Positions 1,535 to 27,554 of a stretch of DNA of 32,886 nt are shown here, piece by piece. This stretch comes from Lacticaseibacillus camelliae DSM 22697 = JCM 13995 (lineage in GTDB: Bacteria > Bacillota > Bacilli > Lactobacillales > Lactobacillaceae). The notes beneath the pieces were generated by a model, which did not search any database, had not been told where the DNA came from, and worked only from the letters and a program-made list of their open reading frames with translations. The stretch is from assembly GCF_001311195.1 (NCBI RefSeq), contig NZ_BBAJ01000020.1, positions 1-32,886 on the forward strand, read 5' to 3'. Numbering within the stretch: the first letter of the stretch is position 1; the number at the start of each line of letters is the position of its first letter. Made by a program: the position numbers and the translations under genes.

Positions 1535-2725
1535 ATGAAAAAGACAACAATCACGGCGGGTAGCCTGATTCTACTGACAGCACTGACGCTTGCGGGCTGC
1601 GGATCAAAACCCGCAGCTAAGACGAGCACCAAGGACACCACAACTGTTGCAGTTTAGACTCTAGCAAAGGACGTTCAAGGCCTCTTCAGCAGCAAGAAGT
1701 ATGAGCTGCCAAGCAAAAAGGTGACCAAAGCCAAGATTACTGCTGCGGGCAAGCAGTACAAGAAGGTCTACAAGCTGCGTGGCGATCTGACCAAGGCGCA
1801 AAAGAAGACGCTGCGTGTCAGCAAGTCTCGCATTGCGGCGATTAAGCAGATGGTCGCCGTCAACACGGAGATCAAGGCTGTGCTCAAGGACAAGCGCGTG
1901 ATTAAGGATCTTACTTACTCAGACGATGCGCTCCAACAGACTCTAACCGGTCTGAAGTCGAAGTACGCGAAGTTTGTCAGTCAGAAGCAAGATGACGCCA
2001 CTCTGATTCATAACGAAGTGGCGGCCATTGCCAAGGTGAAGTCCAGCACCACCGGTGACCCAGACCAGGCGAAGATAGACGCCGCTAAGACAGCGGTCGA
2101 TGCAATCCCGGTTGCCGCCTTCAAGGCTTTTTGGTCACCAAAGATTCCAACCATTGAGAACGGAAAGCTGGTTGCTAAGGAAAGTCTGACCGCTGGCACC
2201 GATAAGGTCTCGGCAACGGTGACACAGGAGACTAGCGCCGCTGCTAAGAGCAGCAGTGCATCTGCACCGGCAGCTTCTTCCAGTGCAAAAGCCAGCCAGG
2301 CAGCAAAGACGACTACTAAGTCAACGCAAGCTACTACGACCAAGCCTTCCACACCAGCAGCTAGCGCAAGCCACAGCACAACCACTAGCCGCCCGACCAC
2401 AACGACGCCTTCTCACTCCACTACGACGACAACCAAGCCGTCTACTGGTTCTTCTACTGGCACGAGCCACACCACAACGCCTAGCAAGCCATCGTCCTCT
2501 AGCTCAAGCACCAAGCCAACTGAGCCAGTCAAGAAGCCGCACGTCCTAGAGCCAGGAGAATACATCGGCAACGGTGGCCTCTTATCTTCAATGAGCGCGG
2601 CCATGGCGGCTATGAATAAGGCATTGGATGACGCCGCTGACGCTGGACAAGGGCGGCAAGCACATGCTTTCAGCGTCTCATATCAAGACGGAACAACCTT
2701 CTACTCTTGGGAATGGTCAGACTAA
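1535..2725 (+). pseudogene. Cell-surface lipoprotein with Ser/Thr-rich linker, interrupted by TAG
   Basis: The ATG at 1535 follows GGGGGAGAGAG and opens a classic lipoprotein signal: MKK, a hydrophobic core, and lipobox LAGC with Cys22. Codon 41 (1655-1657) is TAG. The same frame then stays open to 2725, so a full product would be about 396 residues. After the stop come a Lys/Ala-rich helical region (roughly residues 42-230), a long low-complexity Ser/Thr/Ala/Pro linker (about 235-335) and a small C-terminal domain ending FYSWEWSD. The linker looks like a cell-wall-spanning stalk, so the protein would be membrane-anchored and outward facing. CAG to TAG (Gln to stop) is the simplest lesion. 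The GTG at 1721 could restart translation but has no good ribosome site and would lack the signal peptide. The ligand is unknown; it lies just upstream of the adhesin. Confidence 0.75.
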
Positions 2726-2807: not shown

Positions 2808-2897
2808 ATGACCAGTATCCGCGCACCGGCAGATATACGATTTGTTGCTACTAAATCTATTTTGAGAGGAGATTCCAAACATGAACAAACAGACTAA
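2808..2897 (+). CDS. Possible 29-aa leader peptide overlapping the adhesin start
   Basis: The ATG at 2808 follows AAGGAG (2793-2798) at a normal distance and opens a 29-codon frame (begins MTSIRAPADIRF). It ends at the TAA at 2895-2897, so its last six codons overlap the start of the adhesin gene at 2881. This is the pattern of a translated leader coupled to the downstream gene. There is no hydrophobic segment or codon run that would suggest attenuation by a particular amino acid. It may be chance, because the adhesin has its own ribosome site (GAGAGGAG, about 2866-2873). Confidence 0.3.
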   Translation: MTSIRAPADIRFVATKSILRGDSKHEQTD

Positions 2898-5800
2898 GAG
2901 CCATTTGTGGCGCGGTCTCATTGCAGCTCTAGGCTTAATGCTTGGTCTATTGTTCGCGTTGAATGCTGTTCAGGCGAGTACAGTAAGTGCCGCGTCGGTA
3001 ACGATGGAGCACGGGGGCCATGGGACTAAATCAACGTGGGTGAAGCCAGGCGGTGGCACATTTAAGGAGGGTGGGACACCCACGCTCCATCTAAACTCGG
3101 CGAGCGGGCCGGTGGTATTTTGTATCGATCCGGGGCAAGGCGTTGTAGCCGATGGAGAAGGGTACACGGGTACAGGTTACAAAACCTATCAGGACTCTTC
3201 GGCTGCCAAGCAAATGATTTCTGCAATCGCGTACTATGGCTACCAGAAACAAAAGAGCGTCAATAACTACATCATGACGCAATGGATGATCTGGGAGGAA
3301 CTTGGCTACAAGCTCCAGAGTGTTCAAGCCGGGCCCGTGTCAAAAGCGACCTACAATGCTTTCAAGGCAAAAGTGAATGGCAGATTTCTCCATTCACCGG
3401 CGTAACGTCGTTCAACAACACCACGGTAACTGTTAAGGCCGGCCAATCGGTCACCGTCACCGATTCCACTGGCCGTTTTGCTAACTACGGTGCCACTACG
3501 TACAAAAATACGACTGGCACTACCGTTACCAAGAACGGTAATTCTATGACCATTACTGCGAGCGCTTCCTCAAACGAGTCGGGCAACATTCAGTTTGTTC
3601 CGCAGATTGACGCTAACTATCAAGGCACTCCACTGATTGCGTCCCACGCAACACGCCAGGACGTTATTCGACCATTGATTGACCCGGTCAGCAACCGGAC
3701 AGTTATCAACGTTAAGGTTGAAAAGAACGTCAACGTCGTTTTGCAGAAGTACGACATTTCGACTGACTTTGGCAATAATGATCCGCTGGCAGGCGTAACC
3801 TTCCACTTCACCAAGGATGGCAAGGACTACGGCGACTTCACCACGGATGCCAAGGGCCAGATCGACCTCAACAAGAACATCTCTGAAATGACTGGCAACT
3901 GGACTTACCAAGAAACAAAAACTGTTGATGGGTTCAAGCTCGATTCTACCGTCAAGAAGTTCAGCATTGCCGCTACTGATGCTGGCAAGACTATTAACCT
4001 GACCGCCACCAACGAACGTGTCCCTGAAGAGTTTCACACGACCGTGACCTCCGAGGATGGTACGCACATCCAAGAACCGCACAAGCAGGTGACGATCACT
4101 GATCGCGTATTCTACGCCAATGCCGTACCTGGCAAGGAGTACACGGTTGTTGGCAAGCTGATGGATAAGGCGACTGGCGACGCGCTCCTTGACGACAACG
4201 GCAAGGTTGTCACCAAGACCATGACCTTTGTTGCCAAGACCGCGACTGGCTACGTTGATATGCCGTTCACGTTTGATGCAGCGCTGCTGGCGGGTAAGAC
4301 CGCCGTTGCGTTTGAATCACTCTCCCGCAACGGCCGCGAAGTGGCTGTTCACAACGACATCAACGACGTACCACAAACCATCACCTTCTCCACGCCAAAG
4401 ATTGGCACCACCGCCACTGACGTAGATGGCTCTCATGACGTTCTGTCAGATGGCGACCTGGTGATCAACGACGTTGTGACTTACCACGATCTGATTGTTG
4501 GTAAGACCTACAACATCAAGGGCCAACTGATGGACAAGGCGACCGGCAAGGTTGTCTTGGACGCCAAGGGTAACCCAATTACCGCTGAGAAGACGTTCGT
4601 TGCCGACAAGGCTGACGGTTCGGTTACCATGACCTACACAGTCGATGCTTCTAAGGCAATGGGCAAAGAATTTGTTGTCTTTGAAAACCTCTACCGTGAC
4701 AACTACCTGGTTGTTAGCCACGCTGACATCAACGACGAAGGCCAAACCGTCAAAGTGGTAACCCCTGTGGTTCACACGACGGCGACCTCTGATGAAGGCG
4801 ACAAGCAAGTAATGCCTGAAGAAGACGTCACCATCAAGGATGCTGTTGCGTACAGCGACCTGGTTGTCGGCAAGCACTACTCCGTGACCGGCTACCTGCA
4901 CTACACCGACGGCTCCTTTGTCCTTGATGCAAAGGGCGAAAAGATTTCCAAGACGGTTTCCTTCACCGCCGAGAAGACCGAAGGCACCATCGACGTGACC
5001 TTCACGGTTGATGGCCGCCTGCTGGCGGGCAAGGACGTGGTTGTGTTTGAAAACCTCTACCACAACAACAATCTGATTGCCTTCCACGAAGACGTGAACG
5101 ACAAGGATCAGACCGTGACCTTCCCTAAGATTGAGCTGCACACGACTGCAACTGACTCTGAAGGCTCCAAGGAAGTTGTCCCAGAAGAAAAGGTAACCGT
5201 TAAGGATGCTGTGGCTTACCACGATCTGATCGTTGGCAAGACCTACACCGTGACTGGCTACCTGCACTATACCGACGGCTCTTTCGTTAAGAACGCCGAT
5301 GGTTCAAAAGTTTCCAAGACCGTGACCTTCAAAGCCGAAAAGGCTGACGGCACGATTGACGTTGAATTTGTCGTTGACGGCCGCGCCTTGGCTGGCAAGG
5401 ACGTTGTGGCCTTTGAGTACCTCTACCACAACAACAAGTTGATTGCTTCGCACGAAGACATCAACGACAAAGACCAAACCGTTCACTTCCCGAAGATTGA
5501 GCTGCACACGACGGCGACCTCTAACGGCAAGAAGACGGTGACTGCTAGCCAGAACATGACCATTAACGACGTTGTTGAGTTTAATGACCTCGTGGTTGGT
5601 AAGACCTACACCGTTAAGGGCTACCTGATGGACAAGGCCACTGGCAAGCCGGTTCTGATCAACGGCAAGAAAGTCACTGCTGAAAAGACCTTCAAGGCAA
5701 CCGCTAAGGACATGAAGGTGACTATGACCTTTACGTTCGATGGCAGCTCCCTGGGCGGCCATGACGTGGTTGCTTTTGAAGACCTTTACCACGATGGCAA

Positions 5801-5975
5801 GCTGATTGCTAGCCACGCTGACATCAACGACGCGGGCCAAACGGTTCACATCGCACCAGCACCTAAGCTGACCCAGACTGACGACTCCCTGAACGGTGCA
5901 CTGCTGGCCTTGGTTGTGGTTGCTCTGATCAGTGCTGCGGGTATTGCCTTCTACCTGCTGCGTAAGCGGGCCTAG
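2881..5975 (+). pseudogene. Thioester/ester-bond surface adhesin, frameshifted at 3369-3372
   Basis: Read with one extra A in the run at 3369-3372, this is a single protein of about 1031 residues. It has a signal peptide ending near residue 32 and a thioester domain with Cys81 (VVFCIDPG) and Gln134 (IMTQWMIW). A CnaB domain follows (about 3715-4015; Lys in VVLQKYD, Glu in TYQETK). Five repeats of about 120 residues come next (about 4030-5850), each opening with a TT-A/V-T motif and closing with VxFExLY, SHxDIND and QTV. These resemble the T-Q ester-bond (VaFE) repeats of Gram-positive pilins. The C-terminus has a membrane helix and RKRA tail. In place of LPQTG the sorting site reads LTQTD (5868-5882). 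In this family the thioester binds host or cell surfaces covalently and the intramolecular bonds stiffen the stalk. As written, frame 1 stops at 3405 and the rest is in another frame. The sortase gene follows 3 bases later. Confidence 0.9.
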
Positions 5976-5978
5976 TCA

Positions 5979-6743
5979 ATGCACAAGCGGCGCTGGCTGG
6001 TTGGCTTTCTACTGCTGTTTTTGGTGGTCGGTATCGGCCTCATTGCGTGGCAGCCGCTGCACGAAGTCAACAAGGGACGCCGTGCAAGCACTGAGGGCAA
6101 ACAGCTCATCAAGGCACTAAAGAAGGGCCAGTCGGTAGAAATTAAGACAACGCCCCAGAGAACGCACATACGGGCCGACACAGCGCTTTCAATTCCATCC
6201 GTTGGGATTGACCTGGCAGTCTACAAAACGACCGCAGGGCTTGCGTATGGCGCATATGCGGAGCTTTCAGGGGTAAAGGCGGACACCGCGCCAGGCGATA
6301 ACAACTATGTCCTAGCCGGGCACTCTAGTTATCTTCACGGTGTGTTGTTCGCAAATCTCTTCCAGCTGACCACCAGCCGGGGCTATGAGCGTCGGGCTGG
6401 GGCTGCTTACCGGCCATCGGACTATCAGGGCGGGAAAGGGGCAGGCGGACTGATTCAGGTGTACACAAAGTTAGGCACCTATACGTATCAAGCCGATGTT
6501 GCTTATACCGTCAATGGAGATGACGCGTCGATTCTGAGTGATCCACAAGCAGGCTCGGCAAAGCAGATTCACCTTTTCACTTGTCCTCGCACCGGGCACA
6601 AACACCCGCCATTTCGATACGTTGTCCAAGGTCACTTAATCAAGGTAACACCAACTAAACTTGGCCTCCAAAAGCACCTTGATACGTCTCTAACGGCATC
6701 TGATCCAACCGCGTATCGCGTGGGCACGTTGACAAGTGATTAA
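5979..6743 (+). CDS. Class A-type sortase
   Basis: A 254-residue sortase: an N-terminal membrane anchor (about residues 7-24), then a beta-barrel domain with the catalytic triad visible as His115 in VLAGHSS, Cys202 in LFTCPR and Arg213 in PPFRYVVQG. Sortases cleave a sorting motif near the C-terminus of surface proteins and join them to peptidoglycan or to other subunits. The gene starts 3 bases after the adhesin stop and has no clear ribosome site of its own, so it is probably translationally coupled and dedicated to that adhesin. The adhesin motif is LTQTD rather than LPxTG, so specificity may be altered. The tail after the catalytic Arg is about 40 residues longer than the core needs. Element A of the stem-loop family starts 9 bases after its stop. 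Confidence 0.92.
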   Translation: MHKRRWLVGFLLLFLVVGIGLIAWQPLHEVNKGRRASTEGKQLIKALKKGQSVEIKTTPQRTHIRADTALSIPSVGIDLAVYKTTAGLAYGAYAELSGVKADTAPGDNNYVLAGHSSYLHGVLFANLFQLTTSRGYERRAGAAYRPSDYQGGKGAGGLIQVYTKLGTYTYQADVAYTVNGDDASILSDPQAGSAKQIHLFTCPRTGHKHPPFRYVVQGHLIKVTPTKLGLQKHLDTSLTASDPTAYRVGTLTSD

Positions 6744-7721: not shown

Positions 7722-8522
7722 ATGAAAAGCTTTGCACACCATTATAGTAGCGACATCTCTCGTGAACAATTTGAACTAATCCGGACAGATCTAGAAGGCA
7801 TACGTAAGCGGACTAAGCCAAGAAAGGTTGATTTATATGATATCTTTTGCGCCCTGCTTTATACCTTGAAAAATGGGTGCGTTTGGCGCGATTTACCCAG
7901 CGATTTTCCTAAATGGGAAACCGTCTATTATTACTGGTTACTTTGGACTAAAACGCCATCTCCTGCTGGTATCACTCCTCTGGATAAGGTTTTAAAAAAA
8001 ATTGTCAGCCAACATCGGTTGGCTCAGAAGCGTTCAGTTTATACATCGTTCATCATTCTAGATGCTCAAAGTGTCAAGAATACCGATCCTGCTGAAAGTA
8101 GCGGCTACGATGGTGGTAAAAAGGTGAGTGGGATTAAGCGCCATCTTGCTGTAGATATCAATGGGCTGCCGATGGCAGTCCATGTGACAACCGCCAATGT
8201 TTCTGAGCGTGATGGCGCCAATGCGCTACTGGCGTTAAACAAATCACAGTTTGACCTGGTTCAACGAGTAATGGCCGATGGTGGTTATACTGGTAACAAC
8301 TTTGCTCAATCAGTTCAGGCAATGATTAACGCTGAAGTCATTATTGCTAAACAGAGTGACCTTAGGCACGGTCAAGTGACCCCGCAACGCTGGGTTATCG
8401 AACGCAGTTTTAGCTGGCTAGGAAAATATCGGCGCCTCTGGCGCAATTGTGAGCGAAAGCTGAACACCAGTAAGATGATGATTAGCTTAGCCTTCCTGCG
8501 AATACTCTTGAAAAGATTCTAA
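7722..8522 (+). CDS. IS5-family DDE transposase
   Basis: A single uninterrupted 266-residue frame with CAGGAG upstream of the ATG. The N-terminal part has the IS5-type DUF4096-like signature (LYTLKNGCVWRDLPSDFP, then KWETVYYYW). The catalytic DDE residues are visible: Asp in FIILDAQSVKNTD, Asp in VMADGGYTGN, and Glu in WVIERSFSWLGKYRRLWRNCE, which has the expected Y/R-R-E spacing. It would cut the element ends and insert them at TNA targets. Unlike many IS5 relatives, no programmed frameshift is needed. The stop lies 8 bases inside the right end. Confidence 0.95.
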   Translation: MKSFAHHYSSDISREQFELIRTDLEGIRKRTKPRKVDLYDIFCALLYTLKNGCVWRDLPSDFPKWETVYYYWLLWTKTPSPAGITPLDKVLKKIVSQHRLAQKRSVYTSFIILDAQSVKNTDPAESSGYDGGKKVSGIKRHLAVDINGLPMAVHVTTANVSERDGANALLALNKSQFDLVQRVMADGGYTGNNFAQSVQAMINAEVIIAKQSDLRHGQVTPQRWVIERSFSWLGKYRRLWRNCERKLNTSKMMISLAFLRILLKRF

Positions 8523-10263: not shown

Positions 10264-11569
10264 ATGTATGTGTTGCTGAAGCGCAGCCGCTTTGCCTGGC
10301 CTTTCTTTTCCAAGCTCTCCAAGACCCGCCGTTACTCACTGCATGAGGCGGAGAAGACCATCCGAGAGACAAATCGCGCTTGTCTGGATAGCCACAAAAA
10401 GCTGGTTGTCGTGATTAGCATTCATGACCAGCCAAACGGTGACCTGCTTTTCCGTGATGCACTAGAGCTTGGAACGGATGCGCCGTATATGAGCAACCTG
10501 TTGGCACTGGTTCAGCATACCTTTAAAGAAGTGCTAGATAATGTCTCTTCGGACGATGCCCAGCGATTCATAGCGATGCTTCAGGCAGCTTTGGTCGCGG
10601 AGACAACGCCGGGGCCTAATCCAGAATCCGATTGGGATCCTGGTGCAGCGTCAGAGGAAAAGCCTGAATCAGCCGACAAAAAAATCCCCTCAATCAGAGA
10701 CGGGTCGTTCTGAAGGCGCACCAGAGCAGCGTGAAGCAGCCCACCCATCGCCGGAGGCTGAACCTGACGCTACGTTGGAGGATGATTCCAATGCCGAACC
10801 AGAGCCAGTAGAAGAACCGCCTCGCCGTGAACCCGGGCAACCTGAACCGAAGGTAGAACGGGAACGGCGCGCCAGGCGCCGCCTCGCGCAAGGAGACATC
10901 ATTCGTAAACACAAACGGCTGTTGATTGGACTGGCGGCTGCGCTATTGGCGCTGCTGTGTGTGTTTGGGTCGTACCGGTTCTTTTTCTCATCCAAGGCGG
11001 CGCCACAACCCAGTTACCAATCGCTGGTGCGTGGCGAGAAGTATATCCAAGCAGCTCAGGTGTACCCGGAAAAGCGCAGCAATATTGAAGCCGTGGTGGT
11101 CACTGATGGGACGACGGCACAATTAGCGAAGTTTCAGGCGAAGTACCCCAGCGCAAACGGTAAGTTTGACCTAGCCTACGCACAGCAAAAGTACCTGGTA
11201 GTGATCACTGCTAGCCAGGAAGCAGCGATGACCAGGGTTCGTAAGTCTAAGTTGGCCGTGGCCTATATAAAGACCAAACAGTATGAGCAGGCGGAGATTC
11301 TTAACCAGGATCTGAATGACCAGGACTTGCAAAGTCTGATTGCGATAGGCTACATCCAGACTGGAAAGTTCGATCAAGCGAAGCAAATCAATGCTGAGTT
11401 GAAGAACAAGACCATAGACCAGGCCATCCAAACCGGGGAAACCTACCAAAAGGCGGTTGAGCACTATCAATCTATTGCAAATGATAAAACCAAGAGTGCT
11501 GCTGAAAGAGCGCAGGCAAAAGCTAGCGCTGCTTCATTTCAACATCAACTCGAAACTTTAGGAGAGTGA
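10264..11569 (+). pseudogene. Bitopic membrane protein of transfer operon, frameshifted at A7
   Basis: Two overlapping frames (10264-10713 and 10643-11569) join into one 434-residue protein if the A7 run at 10678-10684 is read as A6. The junction lies inside an acidic, Pro-rich linker that continues smoothly across both frames, and the second frame has no ribosome site, so one gene is likely. Layout: a cytoplasmic domain (residues 1-115), a Pro/Glu linker (115-205), one membrane helix (LLIGLAAALLALLCVFGSY) and an outside domain with TPR-like helical repeats (LAVAYIKTKQYEQAE, IAIGYIQTGKFDQAK). The overall plan recalls EssB/YukC-type scaffold proteins, but I cannot confirm homology. It may be a structural part of the transfer apparatus. 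The stop overlaps the upstream region of the next gene. Confidence 0.6.
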
Positions 11570-11574
11570 CAAGA

Positions 11575-13076
11575 ATGGCACAGGAACCAGAACAAGAGAA
11601 GAAGGGCAGCCGCAAGATTCTTGCGGCTGTTTTAATTTCAGCCGCCGTGCTTGGTGGTGGTGGCTACGGTATCTATCAGGCGGTGGCGGGGCCAGCGCAG
11701 CAGACCGAAAAGACAGCGAAGCCTGCAACAAAGAAGAAGCAGGATACCGTGAAGTCAGTGATCAAGGAGGCCGCTGGCAGCGACTCGCAAAGCAACAAGG
11801 ACGATAGCGCCAAGTCTGTTATCCAGGACGCGTTCCCGACACTCTTGGAGAACGATGAGGGCAATGGCGTGGCCGGAGTCCTGCTCGACAATGGCGTGCA
11901 GAAGCTAGCAGACAACCTCAACTCTGATCAGACCAAGGGCCTTGTGGCACTGGCAACGGATGCCACCAAGCCAACACCAGAACCGATTGAGCCAGCAACA
12001 CCGGAGGTGCTTCCTGGTGGAGACAGCGGCACGTCTGGCAATCAGCCTGGGACACTTCCTGGTGATGGCGGACAGACCGGCGGGGGCACTGATGGTGGAG
12101 GCTCAGATTCTGGTGTAACCACACCTGACCAGGCACCATCCATCAGCGCACCGGCGACGATGACGGTGCACAAGGGTCAGGAATCAGTCAATTTCCGGCT
12201 CGGCGTGACGGCAAGTGACCCAGAAGATGGCGATCTGACAAACGCGATTGGCTATACAACCACGCTTGATAAGAACACGCCAGGCACCTATACCGTTACC
12301 TACTCAGTAACGGATAGCGAGGGGCACACCGTATCAGTGACGCGTGAGATTACAGTAATCAACGACAAGCCTTCTATCGTGTTTCTGAATGACAATCCGG
12401 TTGAGGTGGGTACAACCTTCGACGCCTTGAAAGACGTTCACGCTGCCGACTTCCAAGACGGCGATGTGACGGGCAAGGTTACTGCTGAAGGTAAGGTTGA
12501 TACAACGACTCCTGGTCAGTATGAACTGACCTATTTTGTTACCGATAGTGACGGGCAGACGGTCACCAAGCAACGCACAGTCACGGTTTACGCTGACAAG
12601 CCAGTCATTGACACTACCGACCAGAACACGAGCATCGCAATCAACACTAACTTCGATGCCCTTCAGGGTGTCAAAGCAACCAGCAAGTATGGCGAATCTG
12701 CCTCAAGGTAGACGGAAGCGTCGATACCAGCAAGCCTGGCGAAAATAAGCTGACCTACACGGCGACCGATAAGTTCGGGCAGACGACGACCAAGACTGTG
12801 ACGATTAACGTCACGGCCGACAAGCCGAGCTTGGATGTTGCTAAGGTGCAAACGACGCTCAAGGTCGGTGATCAGTTTGATGCCCTGGTTAACGTAACCA
12901 CAACCAGCCCTTACGGTGAGGCAAGGGTTACCGTTGATGGTTCCGTTGATACGGCTGTGGCAGGTGACTACAAGTTGACCTACACAGCGACTGACAAGTT
13001 TGGACAGACCACAACTAAAGAAGTCACGGTTACTGTGGCAGCTGATGACAGCGCGGATGTAACCGAGGAGGAATAG
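11575..13076 (+). pseudogene. Membrane-anchored Ig-like repeat protein, frameshifted near 12705
   Basis: The start at 11575 follows AGGAGAGTGACAAG. Adding one A at 12705-12706 joins the frame ending at 12711 with the one running to 13076, giving about 500 residues. Layout: an N-terminal anchor helix (ILAAVLISAAVLGGGGYGIY), a charged helical region, a Gly/Pro/Asp-rich spacer, then four Ig-like repeats. Each repeat has an FDAL..V start and a PGxYxLTYxVTDxxGxT end, as in DUF5011/HYR-type bacterial Ig domains. The repeats would project outward from the membrane, for example for contact with the recipient or as a wall spacer. Repeats 3 and 4 are similar enough to support the repaired reading (KVDGSVDT aligns with VTVDGSVDT). 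It sits between the scaffold-like gene and the SSB-like gene. Confidence 0.75.
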
Positions 13077-15537: not shown

Positions 15538-18064
15538 ATGAATATTGACTATAAACAATGGAAAAGCCTTTTGTCGCGGCGTGATGTAATCACCGGTACA
15601 GGGGCTTTTCTGCTTCTAATCTCATGGTGTCTGGGGTGCTTGGCAAGCCACTTGCTTGAGTACCTATTTAGTAGTTTTCAAGCCACTCTGGCAAGTTTCA
15701 ACCAGGGTAAAACGATCACAAGCGCGTCAGGAATCGGCGCCGTGTTTGCACCGTTGAATTGGTTCCTACCGTCAACAAGCGGTCTATTCTGGCTCGTTAC
15801 GGTTGTTGTGCTGTTTGTGTGGCTGGTGAAGGTGCCAAAGCTGCTTTACCAAATGCGTATTGCCTACCGTGATCTTAACCTTGGCTCAATGGGCACCGCT
15901 GCCTTTACACCGTTATCTGATCTTGTGGAGCAGAGTGTGGCGGTACCGCTCGACGGCTCCATCTATGATGGGTACTCCGGCGTGCCGCAAGTGCACGTGA
16001 CGCCGGAGGCTGCCGAAAAACTCAACCTGCATGTCACCTCTTCCCGTGGCCCTCGCCAGAAGAAAGCGTTCGATGCGGTTGTTGCTAGACGAGAGAAGAG
16101 GCAAGGGCGACGCACAATCGGGCCCGTCCCGAAGAACGGATATGACCTGATTGACACGAACAAGACTAACGCGGCCGTTGTCGCGGGTACCCAGTCAGGT
16201 AAGACCCAGACCTTTACATACCCGGTGCTGGACTTGATTATGCGCGCAGCAAAGCAAGATTCGGTCATTGTCACCGACCTGAAAGGCGATATGGTCAAGA
16301 ATACGAAGGCTGCCTTTGAGCAGCACGGCTATGATGTTCGCGTGTTCAACCTGGTTACGCCCGAGTACTCCATTGGCTACAATCCGTTGGCGCTGATTTG
16401 GGAAGCCTACGACAAGGGTGATTATGATGAGGCTCAGCTTCTGTGTAATACGCTGAGCTATTCCCTGTTTCACAATCCTAATGCTAAGGATCCAATGTGG
16501 GAGGAGGCATCTATCGCGCTCACCAACGCATTGATCCTGGCAGTGTGCAGAGTCTGCAAGATCAAGAACACACCGGAGCGCGTCACGATGTACACCGTGT
16601 CAGTCATGCTAAACGAGTTAGGGTCAAACCCTGACGAGAACGGCGACACGAAGATGGATATGTTCTTCAGCCAGCTGGAAGTCAATGACCCCGCAAAGCT
16701 GCAATACGGGACGATCACCTTTTCGCAAGGTATCACACGGGCCGGGATTTACACCGGAACCATGGCCAAGCTCAAAAACTATACGTTTAGTGCAATCGGC
16801 AAGTTGACCGCGACCAATGATCTTCATCTCGCGGATATTGCCAACGGCAACAAGCCGGTCGCGTTGTTCATTGTCTATCCTGACTATGACGATTCCAACT
16901 ACTCACTGATTTCAACGCTGATCAGCCAGATTTCCTACGTCTTGTCAAAGGCTGCCACGCTGTCTGAGACGTCTAGTTTGAAGCGGCGCGTCAAGTTTGT
17001 CCTAGAAGAAGTGGCTAATATCCCGACGATAGAAGCTGAGCCGCTATATGAACGTTGGCCTGCAACGTGGTCTCATTTACTACCTGGTCTTCCAATCTAT
17101 CGCGCAGCTCAAGGATAAGTACGGTGATCGCGGTGCCGAGGCGCTGTTGTCGGCGTGCGGGAATAAGTACGACATCCTGGCCGATGGGAAAGAAGACGCA
17201 GAATACTTCTCGCGGTTGCTTGGTAAAAAGACCATTATCGTACCTAATCGGGCTGGCGATCCCATGAGCATGGATAAGTCATACAGCGAGTCTGAACAGG
17301 CTCGCGATTTGATGACCCCTGAGGAGCTGAGCCAGCTCAAAGAAGGGGAGTGGGTGTTGATCCGTGGGAAGCAGCGGCGGGCCCTTGATGGTACGCAGAT
17401 TAGCGCAAAGCCAATCTACGCCAATCAGGCTGACCAGGATCACATGCTCTTTCAGTATCAGTACCTGAAGGATTTTGATCACCCGCAGACCTTTGAAGAA
17501 CTCAACGGTGACAAGCTGGCATCACATGCGGGCACCAAACTCGATGGGTTGACCATCTCGCAGAATGAATTTGCAGAGACCGCAACCACGACTTTAGACC
17601 AAGCGGAGCGCTTAAAGAACGAGCCAGATCAGTTTGAGGTGCACAGCAGCGACAACGTTCATTCGTCCTATCAGAAAGACAGCAGTGGGAACGTCACAGT
17701 CACTGAGAGTCGTACCGAGGCTGCTAAAGCAGCGGCTGAGACACGTCAGAAGGAAAAGGAAGATCCTGTTGCTGATCTCCACGAGGACGACAAGCCGCTG
17801 ACACAGAACGTTAGCGACTTCGTGAGTGAGGATAGCAGATTTATCGAAGTGGCCTTGACAGAGGCCCAATTAAAAATGGTTCATGACCAGACTGAGCAGT
17901 GGCTCGACAGCGATGAGAATGCGGCGTTCTGGCGTGGCAATACCATGAGCCAGGCACAGGCGTATCTGGCTGGCCACCGCGAGGATAAGCCTGAGTTGTA
18001 TAAGGCGCTGCGGATGATGTTCAAGTTGGCGCAGTTTGAGAAGAAGGAGGGAGCTCATGGGTGA
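15538..18064 (+). pseudogene. virD4: VirD4/TraG-family coupling protein, frameshifted at 17035
   Basis: The coupling ATPase that links the relaxase-DNA complex to the channel. Two membrane helices lie near residues 22-45 and 82-100. Walker A is VAGTQSGKTQ (about 216-224), a nearby strand is VIVTDLKGD, and the Walker B-like region is KFVLEEVANIP. The first frame runs to 17118 but loses the family pattern after TIEA. The second frame picks it up with LSRYMNVGLQRG. Replacing GC at 17035-17036 by GGCC gives TIEGLSRYMNVGLQRG and one protein of about 842 residues. The C-terminal part after about residue 590 is charged and variable, and probably contacts the relaxosome. The stop overlaps the start of the VirB6-like gene. 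Known as TrsK in the staphylococcal naming. Confidence 0.9.
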
Positions 18065-25865: not shown

Positions 25866-26305
25866 CAAAAGTTCGTAAGCACATCATGCTTGAGGACACC
25901 TCCAAGAATGGGTTGTCTTGGGAGTGGCTAGCCGACTACATGAAGGAAAATGGCATCCGTACGCTTGGTGATGGGCTGCAACATCTCTTTGTAGAATATC
26001 GGCAACTGCAACGGCAGGTCGCTGACCAAGAGAACCTTGCAAAAGCAATCGCCAAGGAGGTTAAACCTCAGCTCGATCCGATTCGTATTCGGACGGGCTA
26101 TGTAGACAAGAACGTGCGTGTGCTCACTAATTTACTCAACTCGTATTTGATTATCAGTGGCATGGAAGACGCAATTCCGGTGACCGATGTTATGGCGGAA
26201 TCTATTACCGCAACACAGAAGCAGGTCGCAGATCAAATCCATGCTTACCAGGTCGCACGCAAGGATAAGCTAACGAGATCGACGCGGGGTGATGGTGATG
26301 AGTAA
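25862..26305 (+). CDS. Relaxosome accessory protein, 147 aa
   Basis: Starts in the ATGA overlap with the ribbon-helix-helix gene (site AGGAGGGAC). The product is soluble and predicted all-helical, with LSWEWLADYMKENGIRTLG near the start and a long helix with heptad character (FVEYRQLQRQVADQENLAKAIAKEV). There is no catalytic motif. It sits between the DNA-binding gene and the relaxase, and its last bases overlap the relaxase start, so the three form a coupled operon. It is probably a helper of relaxase loading, but I do not recognise the family by sequence. Confidence 0.6.
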   Translation: MTKVRKHIMLEDTSKNGLSWEWLADYMKENGIRTLGDGLQHLFVEYRQLQRQVADQENLAKAIAKEVKPQLDPIRIRTGYVDKNVRVLTNLLNSYLIISGMEDAIPVTDVMAESITATQKQVADQIHAYQVARKDKLTRSTRGDGDE

Positions 26306-27554
26306 GTCACCTGGCATCGTGACCGTAATGAAATTTGTCCCAGCACCCGACAAGAAGTTCAGCGGTTACGTGAACTATATGGATAGGCCGGACGCAATGC
26401 GCGGTGATCACTTCAAGGAATGGAACGTTAACCGTTTCGACGGCTACAACTATTACATGAATAACCCAGAAAAGAGTAAAGGGTTGTTCACGGCAGGTAA
26501 GGATTCTTTAACGCAGGAGGAACGCACCGAGCTGAAACGACAGTTTGCGCTCGCACAGAAAAACGGCTCGCTAATGTGGCAAACCGTGGTGAGTTTCGAT
26601 AACCGGTTTCTCGCAGACCACGGGCTTTATAATCTGCAAAGCAAGCAGCTCGACCAGGAGAAAATACAACAGACAATTCGTAATGGCATGAGTGGTCTTC
26701 TAATCAATGAAGGTTTAGCCAACACGGCGGTGTGGTCAGCATCAATTCACCTCAATACTGACAACATTCACGTGCATATTGCGTTTGTAGAACCTGAACC
26801 AACGCGCCAGAGTATCCTGATTCATGATTCCGAAGGCCAGGTGAAAGAGGCAGCAAACGGTATGATAAAACGCTCGACTATTTCCGCCTTTAAGTCCTCA
26901 ATCGCAAATGAGTTAATCAACCGGGATCAGTCGCTTGCTCGACTTTCCATCCTGATACGTAATGAGCTTCCGCAGCATGACTATGACTGGGGGAAGCTCC
27001 CGAACTTTGACTTGCTGCGGTTGTACCAACAGATCTACAAAGCGCTTCCTGACGATAAGCGGAAGTGGAAGTACAACATGAACGCGCTTCAAGAAGCGCG
27101 ACCGCTGCTCGACGCGTTTAGCTCCAAATTCATGCAGCGGTATCACGCAAATGAGTTGCAAGAGTTTGATCAAGCGCTGAAGGCCGAGACAGATTTTCGC
27201 GAGGCACTGTATGGTTCTGGTCAAGAAGGTAAGGAAGCTGGTCGGGCCAAAGACTACGAACACGGTAAGTATGATGAATTGTACGCCAGGATGGGCAACT
27301 CGATCCTGAGCGAGATGAGAAAGACAGACGACGCGGTTTATAGGAAGGAGCATCCGAACGGGCTCTCCAACCACAAGGCCCAGCGAGGCCAGCCTAACCA
27401 GGGCATCTTCCAAGCCTTGTCGTCTATCCGCCGGGCGCTTTCCGGCGACATGAAGGCGCGTGCGAAAGCACAGCGCGACTATGAACGAATGCAGGATGAA
27501 AAAGAAGCTGACCGCCAGCGTCAGCAGAATCAGGGCTATGGCCCTGAACGATGA
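26298..27554 (+). CDS. MobP-type relaxase
   Basis: About 418 residues from the ATG at 26298; in-frame starts at 26289 and 26292 are also possible. The N-terminal half is the relaxase domain. The first motif FSGYVNYMDRPDA carries candidate catalytic Tyr residues. The metal-binding histidines are in HLNTDNIHVHIAFVEPEPTR (His151, His158, His160). The enzyme nicks one strand at oriT, stays covalently attached through Tyr, and pilots the strand through VirD4. The motif spacing is that of the MobP2 relaxases common on lactobacillus plasmids. The C-terminal part is highly charged and helical and probably binds partners. A terminator begins at its stop codon. Confidence 0.88.
   Translation: MSKSPGIVTVMKFVPAPDKKFSGYVNYMDRPDAMRGDHFKEWNVNRFDGYNYYMNNPEKSKGLFTAGKDSLTQEERTELKRQFALAQKNGSLMWQTVVSFDNRFLADHGLYNLQSKQLDQEKIQQTIRNGMSGLLINEGLANTAVWSASIHLNTDNIHVHIAFVEPEPTRQSILIHDSEGQVKEAANGMIKRSTISAFKSSIANELINRDQSLARLSILIRNELPQHDYDWGKLPNFDLLRLYQQIYKALPDDKRKWKYNMNALQEARPLLDAFSSKFMQRYHANELQEFDQALKAETDFREALYGSGQEGKEAGRAKDYEHGKYDELYARMGNSILSEMRKTDDAVYRKEHPNGLSNHKAQRGQPNQGIFQALSSIRRALSGDMKARAKAQRDYERMQDEKEADRQRQQNQGYGPER

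Follow-up and report, generated by a model that had tools for sequence, protein, structure and literature searches.

We find that the DNA analysed here (a stretch of 32,886 bases, referred to below as the window) probably encodes, on a conjugative-type plasmid, an anchoring pair of two genes: a thioester/TQ adhesin whose sorting signal lacks proline, and a dedicated sortase that would read that signal. We favor a specificity belonging to the pair itself because the proline-free signal is conserved with synonymous changes, is carried by two unrelated kinds of protein, and is present at all 10 loci of the sortase's clade. A preliminary description of this DNA had posed two alternatives, a new specificity or an adhesin that is no longer anchored to the wall; conservation of the signal across genomes, at 10 of 10 loci, favors the former and disfavors the latter.

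The adhesin, its signal and the element that carries them

The window is the whole of contig C20 of a Lacticaseibacillus genome assembled in 161 contigs (84.5% complete, 5.9% contamination). The features on which the argument rests are the following:

1721-2725, + strand: Ser/Thr-rich protein upstream of the adhesin; C-terminus like that of the gene upstream of the G232 clade sortase (by eye), no Pfam match
2881-3405, + strand: N-terminal frame of the adhesin, with signal peptide and thioester domain (TED; PF08341, 43.4 bits); terminates early relative to relatives
3282-5975, + strand: remaining frame of the adhesin, with SpaA domain (PF17802), five TQ ester-bond domains (PF18202, 5 stretches) and the sorting signal
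5865-5897, + strand: sorting-signal region K-L-T-Q-T-D-D-S-L-N-G, with identical residues and synonymous codon changes at five loci
5868-5882, + strand: the pentapeptide LTQTD (CTG ACC CAG ACT GAC), proline-free and with Asp in fifth position
5898-5960, + strand: hydrophobic, probably membrane-spanning stretch of the sorting signal (read from the sequence by eye)
5961-5972, + strand: positively charged tail RKRA, from the sequence itself
5979-6743, + strand: sortase (PF04203), 254 aa, with a hydrophobic helix at the N-terminus only
6321-6323, + strand: catalytic His115 in AGHSSY (alignment of sortases)
6369-6443, + strand: 25-residue insertion, residues 131-155, from the FxxL helix to strand beta5 (alignment of sortases)
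6570-6584, + strand: residues 198-202, H-L-F-T-C in place of T-L-I/V-T-C, including catalytic Cys202 (alignment)
6615-6617, + strand: catalytic Arg213 (alignment of sortases)
15538-18064, + strand: VirD4-type coupling protein of a conjugation module, in two frames in the window (PF02534 on the first)
26289-27554, + strand: MobL relaxase (PF18555, 525 bits)

Since the window holds genes for both a coupling protein and a MobL relaxase, the adhesin-sortase pair sits on a conjugative or mobilisable element.

The adhesin tail, PKLTQTDDSLNG-ALLALVVVALISAAGIAFYLL-RKRA, closes at the stop codon at 5973-5975, and the ATG of the sortase follows 3 bases further, at 5979. The sequence thus agrees with three points of the preliminary description: that LTQTD at 5868-5882 stands in a sorting-signal context ending in RKRA; that its Thr and Asp are each one base away from the canonical codons (ACC against CCC, GAC against GGC); and that a sortase with a full triad (H115, C202, R213) lies 3 bases downstream. 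The description had also treated the change from Gly to Asp as key, a view that has to be given up: Asp in fifth position is unremarkable in lactobacilli, as LPQTD on a Limosilactobacillus reuteri plasmid homologue and, in the excerpted text of PMC3619620, the L. plantarum consensus LPQTXE illustrate. These two signals resemble LTQTD in their non-Gly fifth residue and differ from it in keeping Pro. Because Asp for Gly is already known in lactobacilli, the true anomaly of LTQTD is its absent proline.

A signal peptide, a C-terminal hydrophobic stretch and a basic tail are all present, as read by eye from an intact homologue in L. suilingensis and, for the C-terminal parts, from the window's own tail. 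The LPXTG pattern calls for Pro at position 2, where the window adhesin has Thr. In Pfam, Gram_pos_anchor (PF00746) gave no match to this adhesin at E values up to 0.001, and a search of the window's own genome at E values as high as 10 gave 23 PF00746 places, none of them on contig C20. Annotation based on LPXTG overlooks proteins of this kind, and Pfam did so here.

In the window the adhesin is divided between two reading frames, 2881-3405 and 3282-5975. The L. suilingensis homologue is intact (1030 aa) and has the LTQTD signal; in genome G263 the adhesin is open across the region that is broken in the window, reaching the contig end, with its last 239 residues at the opposite contig end; one L. 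suibinensis copy (L005) is also split. We compared the window with the near-identical G263 plasmid, to which it is 97.8-99.0% identical in large blocks, and counted 28 one- or two-base indels over 32.9 kb. Several genes that are single frames in the G263 plasmid are broken up in the window (2881-5975, 10264-13076, and 15538-18064 with the coupling protein). The small indels relative to a near-identical plasmid, together with the splitting of several genes at once, suggest assembly error, which is likelier than decay of so many genes at the same time. None of the listed indels relative to G263 falls inside the signal or the sortase.

Two further observations concern the surroundings of the pair. 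An IS4/5-family transposase (PF01609, PF13340) lies at 7722-8522, within about 880 bases that are unmatched in the G263 plasmid pieces compared. Two proteins of low complexity, rich in Ser/Thr and encoded upstream of clade sortase modules (window 1721-2725; L040:12063-12848), have in common, by eye, the C-terminal pattern GNGGL/GSGGLF ... FSV.Y.DG...WSWE, and Pfam matches neither.

A sortase only distantly like class A

The window sortase scores 46.8 bits against Pfam Sortase (PF04203; curated cut-off 26.6), which places it in the superfamily. Among the NCBIfam models, TIGR01076 reached 29.4 bits against a cut-off of 39.35 and no class model exceeded its cut-off, which holds likewise for two other clade members; the class E model NF033747 gave no match at E up to 0.001 in the three clade sortases scanned. 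Since these NCBIfam cut-offs were all missed, we rejected class A and class E membership as defined by curated models. The clade sortase is only distantly class A-like, with 19-26% identity to the aligned class A rows. Its architecture is that of class A: an N-terminal hydrophobic helix, no C-terminal one, and a class A-like fold in an AlphaFold2 model built from 28 rows (pLDDT 77.5, pTM 0.79; an 8-row model with pLDDT 35 was left unused). When this model was compared with solved structures, SrtA enzymes occupied rows 1-19 of the best 50 (Z 14.0-15.8), a ranking that may lean to them because the input rows included class A enzymes. The top matches were 8snq (S. pyogenes SrtA; Z 15.8, 3.1 A over 137 residues) and 5hu4 (Z 15.5, 2.6 A over 133 residues); class E structures reached Z values of up to 14.0, with 13.3 for S. 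coelicolor SrtE1 (5cuw).

The residues around the active site set the clade apart. The triad H115, C202, R213 is unvarying in 28 of 28 aligned sortases, rows that were chosen partly for GH and TC; for the comparison of residues, seven clade rows were set against 21 other sortases from the loci, of class A and C types. The TLxTC signature is altered in the clade: all seven clade rows have His at its first T, where the 21 others have T or S, while the last T and the C are retained, so that the wording around the catalytic Cys is [IL]H[LV][FY]TC throughout (7/7). Position x of the signature (residue 200) is Phe or Tyr in every clade row, compared with Ile, Val or Leu in 20 of the 21 others and Tyr in the remaining one. 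Directly after the catalytic Cys stands Pro203 (7/7 clade rows, 0/21 other sortases), and directly after the catalytic His comes Ser-Ser-Tyr in all seven clade rows. Finally, the segment from the FxxL helix to beta5 is 25 residues long in 7/7 clade rows, against 2 in 20 of the 21 other sortases and 20 in one.

His198 and Phe/Tyr200 of the clade sortase occupy what we take to be the places of Thr180 and Ile182 in S. aureus SrtA. In Spy0129, a sortase of altered specificity, excerpts of PMC3019223 describe Ser replacing Ile182 and Tyr replacing Ala118 in the binding groove. We suggest, more tentatively than for the pair as a whole, that His198, Phe/Tyr200 and the 25-residue insertion remodel the pocket in which class A enzymes hold the proline; behind these residue assignments stand an alignment and a model whose input included class A rows.

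Recurrence of proline-free signals beside the sortase

Among 30 Lacticaseibacillus genomes, a profile of clade sortases recovered 10 loci in nine, at 296-501 bits; the match after them had 34 bits. The 10 loci represent few lineages, perhaps three or four independent comparisons. Each has one proline-free signal: LTQTD on the TQ adhesin (5 loci), LQQTG on a basal-pilin-like protein (4), or LTQTD on another basal-pilin-like protein (1). Close relatives of the sortase were sought in 84,980 species genomes and four were confirmed: L. daqingensis (99% identical) and L. suilingensis (72%) have one each, and L. suibinensis has two (71-72%). All four loci show LTQTDDSLNG followed by the sortase after an equal 3-base gap. 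Outside the window's genome, LTQTD occurs in G263, G312, G313 and G309, and its recurrence in these four independently assembled genomes rules out a mutation private to the window.

The codons vary beneath the constant residues. Thr at position 2 is encoded by ACC in the window and L. daqingensis; one L. suibinensis copy shares ACT with L. suilingensis, and the other L. suibinensis copy has ACG; the Asp codon of LTQTD is GAC in all six loci read. Comparison of the last 149 adhesin codons between the window and L. suilingensis gave 28 synonymous and 7 other codon differences (dN/dS 0.067). The sortase gave dN/dS values of 0.134, 0.083 and 0.100 in three pairs, two of them with dS >1, and a fourth pair was saturated; judged by these substitution rates, the clade sortase is under purifying selection. 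Its frame is open at 10 of 10 loci, the stop flagged in G305 being the terminal one.

In wider samples, 50 of 301 genomes of the family matched at E 0.001, with only G000, G263, G232 and G216 above 180 bits and the rest below 25, and an order sample of 395 genomes at E 1e-10 gave the window's own genome as the sole match; both sets are samples and do not imply that the clade is absent outside the genus. Searches of plasmids with the locus (megablast) and with the window and G232 sortases (tblastn) gave no match, and viral contigs yielded no relative. The clade loci share some of their surroundings: window gene 11566, which lies near the conjugation genes, has a homologue, 42-99.7% identical, in the fetched stretch of each of the nine other clade loci. 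Within those stretches the coupling protein was within reach for G263 and G309 only, and was found in both.

In G216, G232, G304 and G305, a clade sortase roughly 230 residues long, sharing 42-46% identity with that of the window, lies upstream of a pilus cluster comprising a thioester/SpaA protein (LPNTG), a backbone-type protein (LPNTG), a class C-type sortase, and a 287-residue protein that ends in KLQQTGHTL and that in G232 matches GramPos_pilinD1. In G309, the clade sortase (52% identical to the window's) lies about 3.2 kb from a 289-residue protein ending in KLTQTDHQYNG, before which stand two large surface-protein frames ending in LPVTG. This G309 protein, which has no Pfam match, is 35-39% identical to the LQQTG basal-pilin-like proteins and 44% identical to the FPQTG base of a second G304 cluster, on a 16.9-kb contig without a clade sortase (that of G304 is on another contig). 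Its similarity to the window adhesin is confined to the last 39 residues (41% identity; E 2.7e-4 with the adhesin as query, 0.084 in reverse). Because LTQTD thus occurs on dissimilar proteins beside the clade sortase, the signal goes with the sortase lineage and not with the protein. The proline-free signal is always on a single adhesin or a putative pilus base, the other pilins of a cluster having LPNTG or LPVTG and their own SrtC. We looked for the arrangement that the preliminary description had named as speaking against a distinct specificity, homologues all carrying LPxTG with the same sortase, and did not find it: all 10 loci have a proline-free signal.

Adhesins of the same kinds elsewhere keep the proline. 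The other thioester-adhesin loci in the genus end in LPQTG in 13 of 13 cases, and the seven plasmid TQ adhesins read, out of 35 records found, are all of the proline type: MPQTG (three, of which two records share one protein accession), LPKTG, LPQTD and LPQTG (two). No sortase is annotated near these seven in the stretches shown, for which the gene table is incomplete. Of the 23 PF00746 places in the window's own genome, 15 have a readable motif and 8 do not; all 15 readable ones have Pro, which the model favors.

A profile of proline-free signals run over 30 genomes scored the 10 clade loci highest (68-78 bits, against 28.3 for the match after them), a ranking that is partly circular because the profile was built from 7 of the 10 signals. 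Below these loci, among the matches listed, we read 80 places (60 fetched plus 20 loci), of which 78 were readable: 75 with Pro, three of them also counted among the 13 thioester adhesins, and 3 with Thr. This census covers signals that resemble the signal profile or PF00746, and leaves out L216, L177 (signal unreadable), G314:C2, L190 and two LPNTG pilins of the clade clusters (read separately). It was counted by eye from C-terminal tails; regex counts gave false motifs in helices and antisense frames. The three Thr signals are LTQTG on repetitive coiled-coil-type chromosomal proteins, two in G309 (L251 on G309:C31, L252 on G309:C38) and one in G303 (L253 on G303:C12), and no sortase was seen beside them in the stretches read. 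G303 is without a clade sortase and has six sortase matches of other kinds. Because LTQTG is found in this genome, Thr at position 2 is not exclusive to the clade sortase, whether or not such proteins are wall-anchored, and LTQTG may be tolerated by a housekeeping enzyme; this is the strongest point against an exclusive pairing.

A related arrangement was seen in two conjugative plasmids of enterococci, pQY082 of E. mundtii and another from E. hirae: a row of genes for a sortase annotated as class A, a pilin, a class C sortase and a homologue of the basal pilin. The basal-pilin homologues (L289:6908-7669, L290:6908-7669) have IVSTGVKKNFFENCWDFVTHLF or similar at the C-terminus and lack both LPxTG and a clear membrane helix. 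The annotated class A sortase has TLFTC and is 24-28% identical to the window's sortase and 38% identical to the class A-type sortase of the window's own genome. In pQY082, near an intact sortase, L289:1521-2210 is annotated as a sortase and has neither the catalytic His (AGYNV) nor the Cys; it is likely a pseudo-sortase. As a lead, the enterococcal case suggests that element-borne anchoring sortases with divergent pilus-base signals may be a wider theme.

Precedents, alternatives and implications

The known sortase systems provide instructive comparisons, for which we draw on excerpts of the papers cited. S. aureus SrtA, whose site accommodates the L shape that Pro at position 2 imposes on the signal, cut the Pro peptide only (PMC5148588). 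With class A SrtA/LPXTG (L. rhamnosus GG SrtA, PDB 7cfj/7f87), the clade shares the fold (Z 14.3-14.4), a hydrophobic helix at the N-terminus only, and the His-Cys-Arg triad; it differs in its altered TLxTC, the 25-residue insertion, the Pro-less neighboring substrate, and its tie to one substrate on a mobile element. The class E enzyme SrtE1 of Streptomyces coelicolor (PDB 5cuw) has a similar fold and prefers Ala over Pro two-fold, and the LAXTG signal of its class differs from 90% of known signals at position 2 (PMC5148588); class E is a precedent for a sortase reading a Pro-less signal. SrtE, however, is actinobacterial and its signal has Ala at position 2, while the signals neighboring the clade have Thr or Gln (LTQTD, LQQTG) and so fall outside LAXTG. 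Spy0129, the class B pilus sortase of Streptococcus pyogenes, is likewise a pilus-cluster enzyme with an altered signal, (E/Q/V)(V/P)PTG (PMC3019223); it polymerises pilins and its signals keep Pro at position 3, whereas the clade enzyme adjoins a separate SrtC in the pilus clusters and its signal is without any Pro. Pilus bases are typically anchored by the housekeeping SrtA (PMC3019223). A plasmid-borne sortase pilus is known from Lactococcus lactis pSH74 (spaCB-spaA-srtC1-srtC2), where the pilus base carries LPDTGE and its predicted anchor is the chromosomal SrtA; as described in the excerpts of PMC5152845, that cluster is without a dedicated anchoring sortase.

Against this background, could the host's housekeeping SrtA anchor the LTQTD protein, with Thr at position 2 tolerated in the genus and the adjoining sortase redundant or in another role? 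The LTQTG signals on three chromosomal proteins of G303 and G309 speak for such tolerance, the more so as none of the six sortase matches in G303 belongs to the clade. We consider this explanation unlikely, given that Pro is kept in 75 of the 78 other signals of the genus, among the matches listed, and in 15 of the 15 readable PF00746 places of the own genome (the model favoring Pro), that in the excerpted data of PMC5148588 S. aureus SrtA gave no hydrolysis of a peptide with Ala for Pro, and that it leaves unexplained the proline-free signal at all 10 clade loci. The simplest reading is a dedicated anchoring pair, since the element has its own anchoring-type sortase and the proline-free signal is on the wall-linkable subunit, while the other pilins have LPNTG or LPVTG with SrtC.

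That the signal has decayed and the adhesin is no longer wall-anchored appears very improbable. The split frames in the window and in one L. suibinensis copy would fit such decay, but the signal is unchanged over the five TQ-adhesin loci with synonymous codon changes, it is present in the intact L. suilingensis adhesin, the sortase is under purifying selection, and the indels relative to the near-identical plasmid, with several genes split together, suggest assembly error. Somewhat less remote, and still improbable, is a sortase that links the adhesin or pilus base not to peptidoglycan but to another protein, for example a component of the conjugation apparatus. The clade loci do adjoin related conjugation-module genes, and some sortases are pilin polymerases (excerpts of PMC3019223); yet a C-terminal hydrophobic helix is absent from the clade enzyme, the solved structures most like it are those of class A anchoring enzymes, and the pilus clusters already have a class C-type enzyme.

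On the favored reading of a dedicated anchoring pair, the clade sortase is predicted from sequence to cleave after Thr in L-[T/Q]-Q-T-[D/G] and would then join a single adhesin or pilus base to the wall, with peptidoglycan as the presumed acceptor. The conjugative element could in this way anchor a mating adhesin or pilus independently of the host's LPxTG-reading SrtA and without competition with it. A mating role for the window adhesin fits, by analogy, the effect of the plasmid pilus in L. lactis, where the overexpressed pSH74 cluster raised conjugation efficiency (excerpts of PMC5152845). We propose, as an idea about evenly poised between right and wrong, that these enzymes form a separate sortase subclass on Lacticaseibacillus conjugative elements, orthogonal to the host SrtA: a remodelled proline pocket would read the proline-free signal L-[T/Q]-Q-T-[D/G], and the enzymes would serve solely the terminal anchor of the element's own adhesin or pilus. 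A literature search with most subscription journals outside its scope returned no paper with LTQTD, or with a sortase plus LTQTG or LQQTG, and in a broader search no such sortase-signal pair was named in titles or abstract openings.

If the proposal is true, these enzymes would be a second natural solution, besides class E, to proline-free sorting. A Firmicute enzyme-signal pair without Pro would be a natural experiment in sortase specificity and a candidate orthogonal tool for sortase-mediated ligation, and it would be a sign that the surface display of mobile elements is maintained independently of the host.
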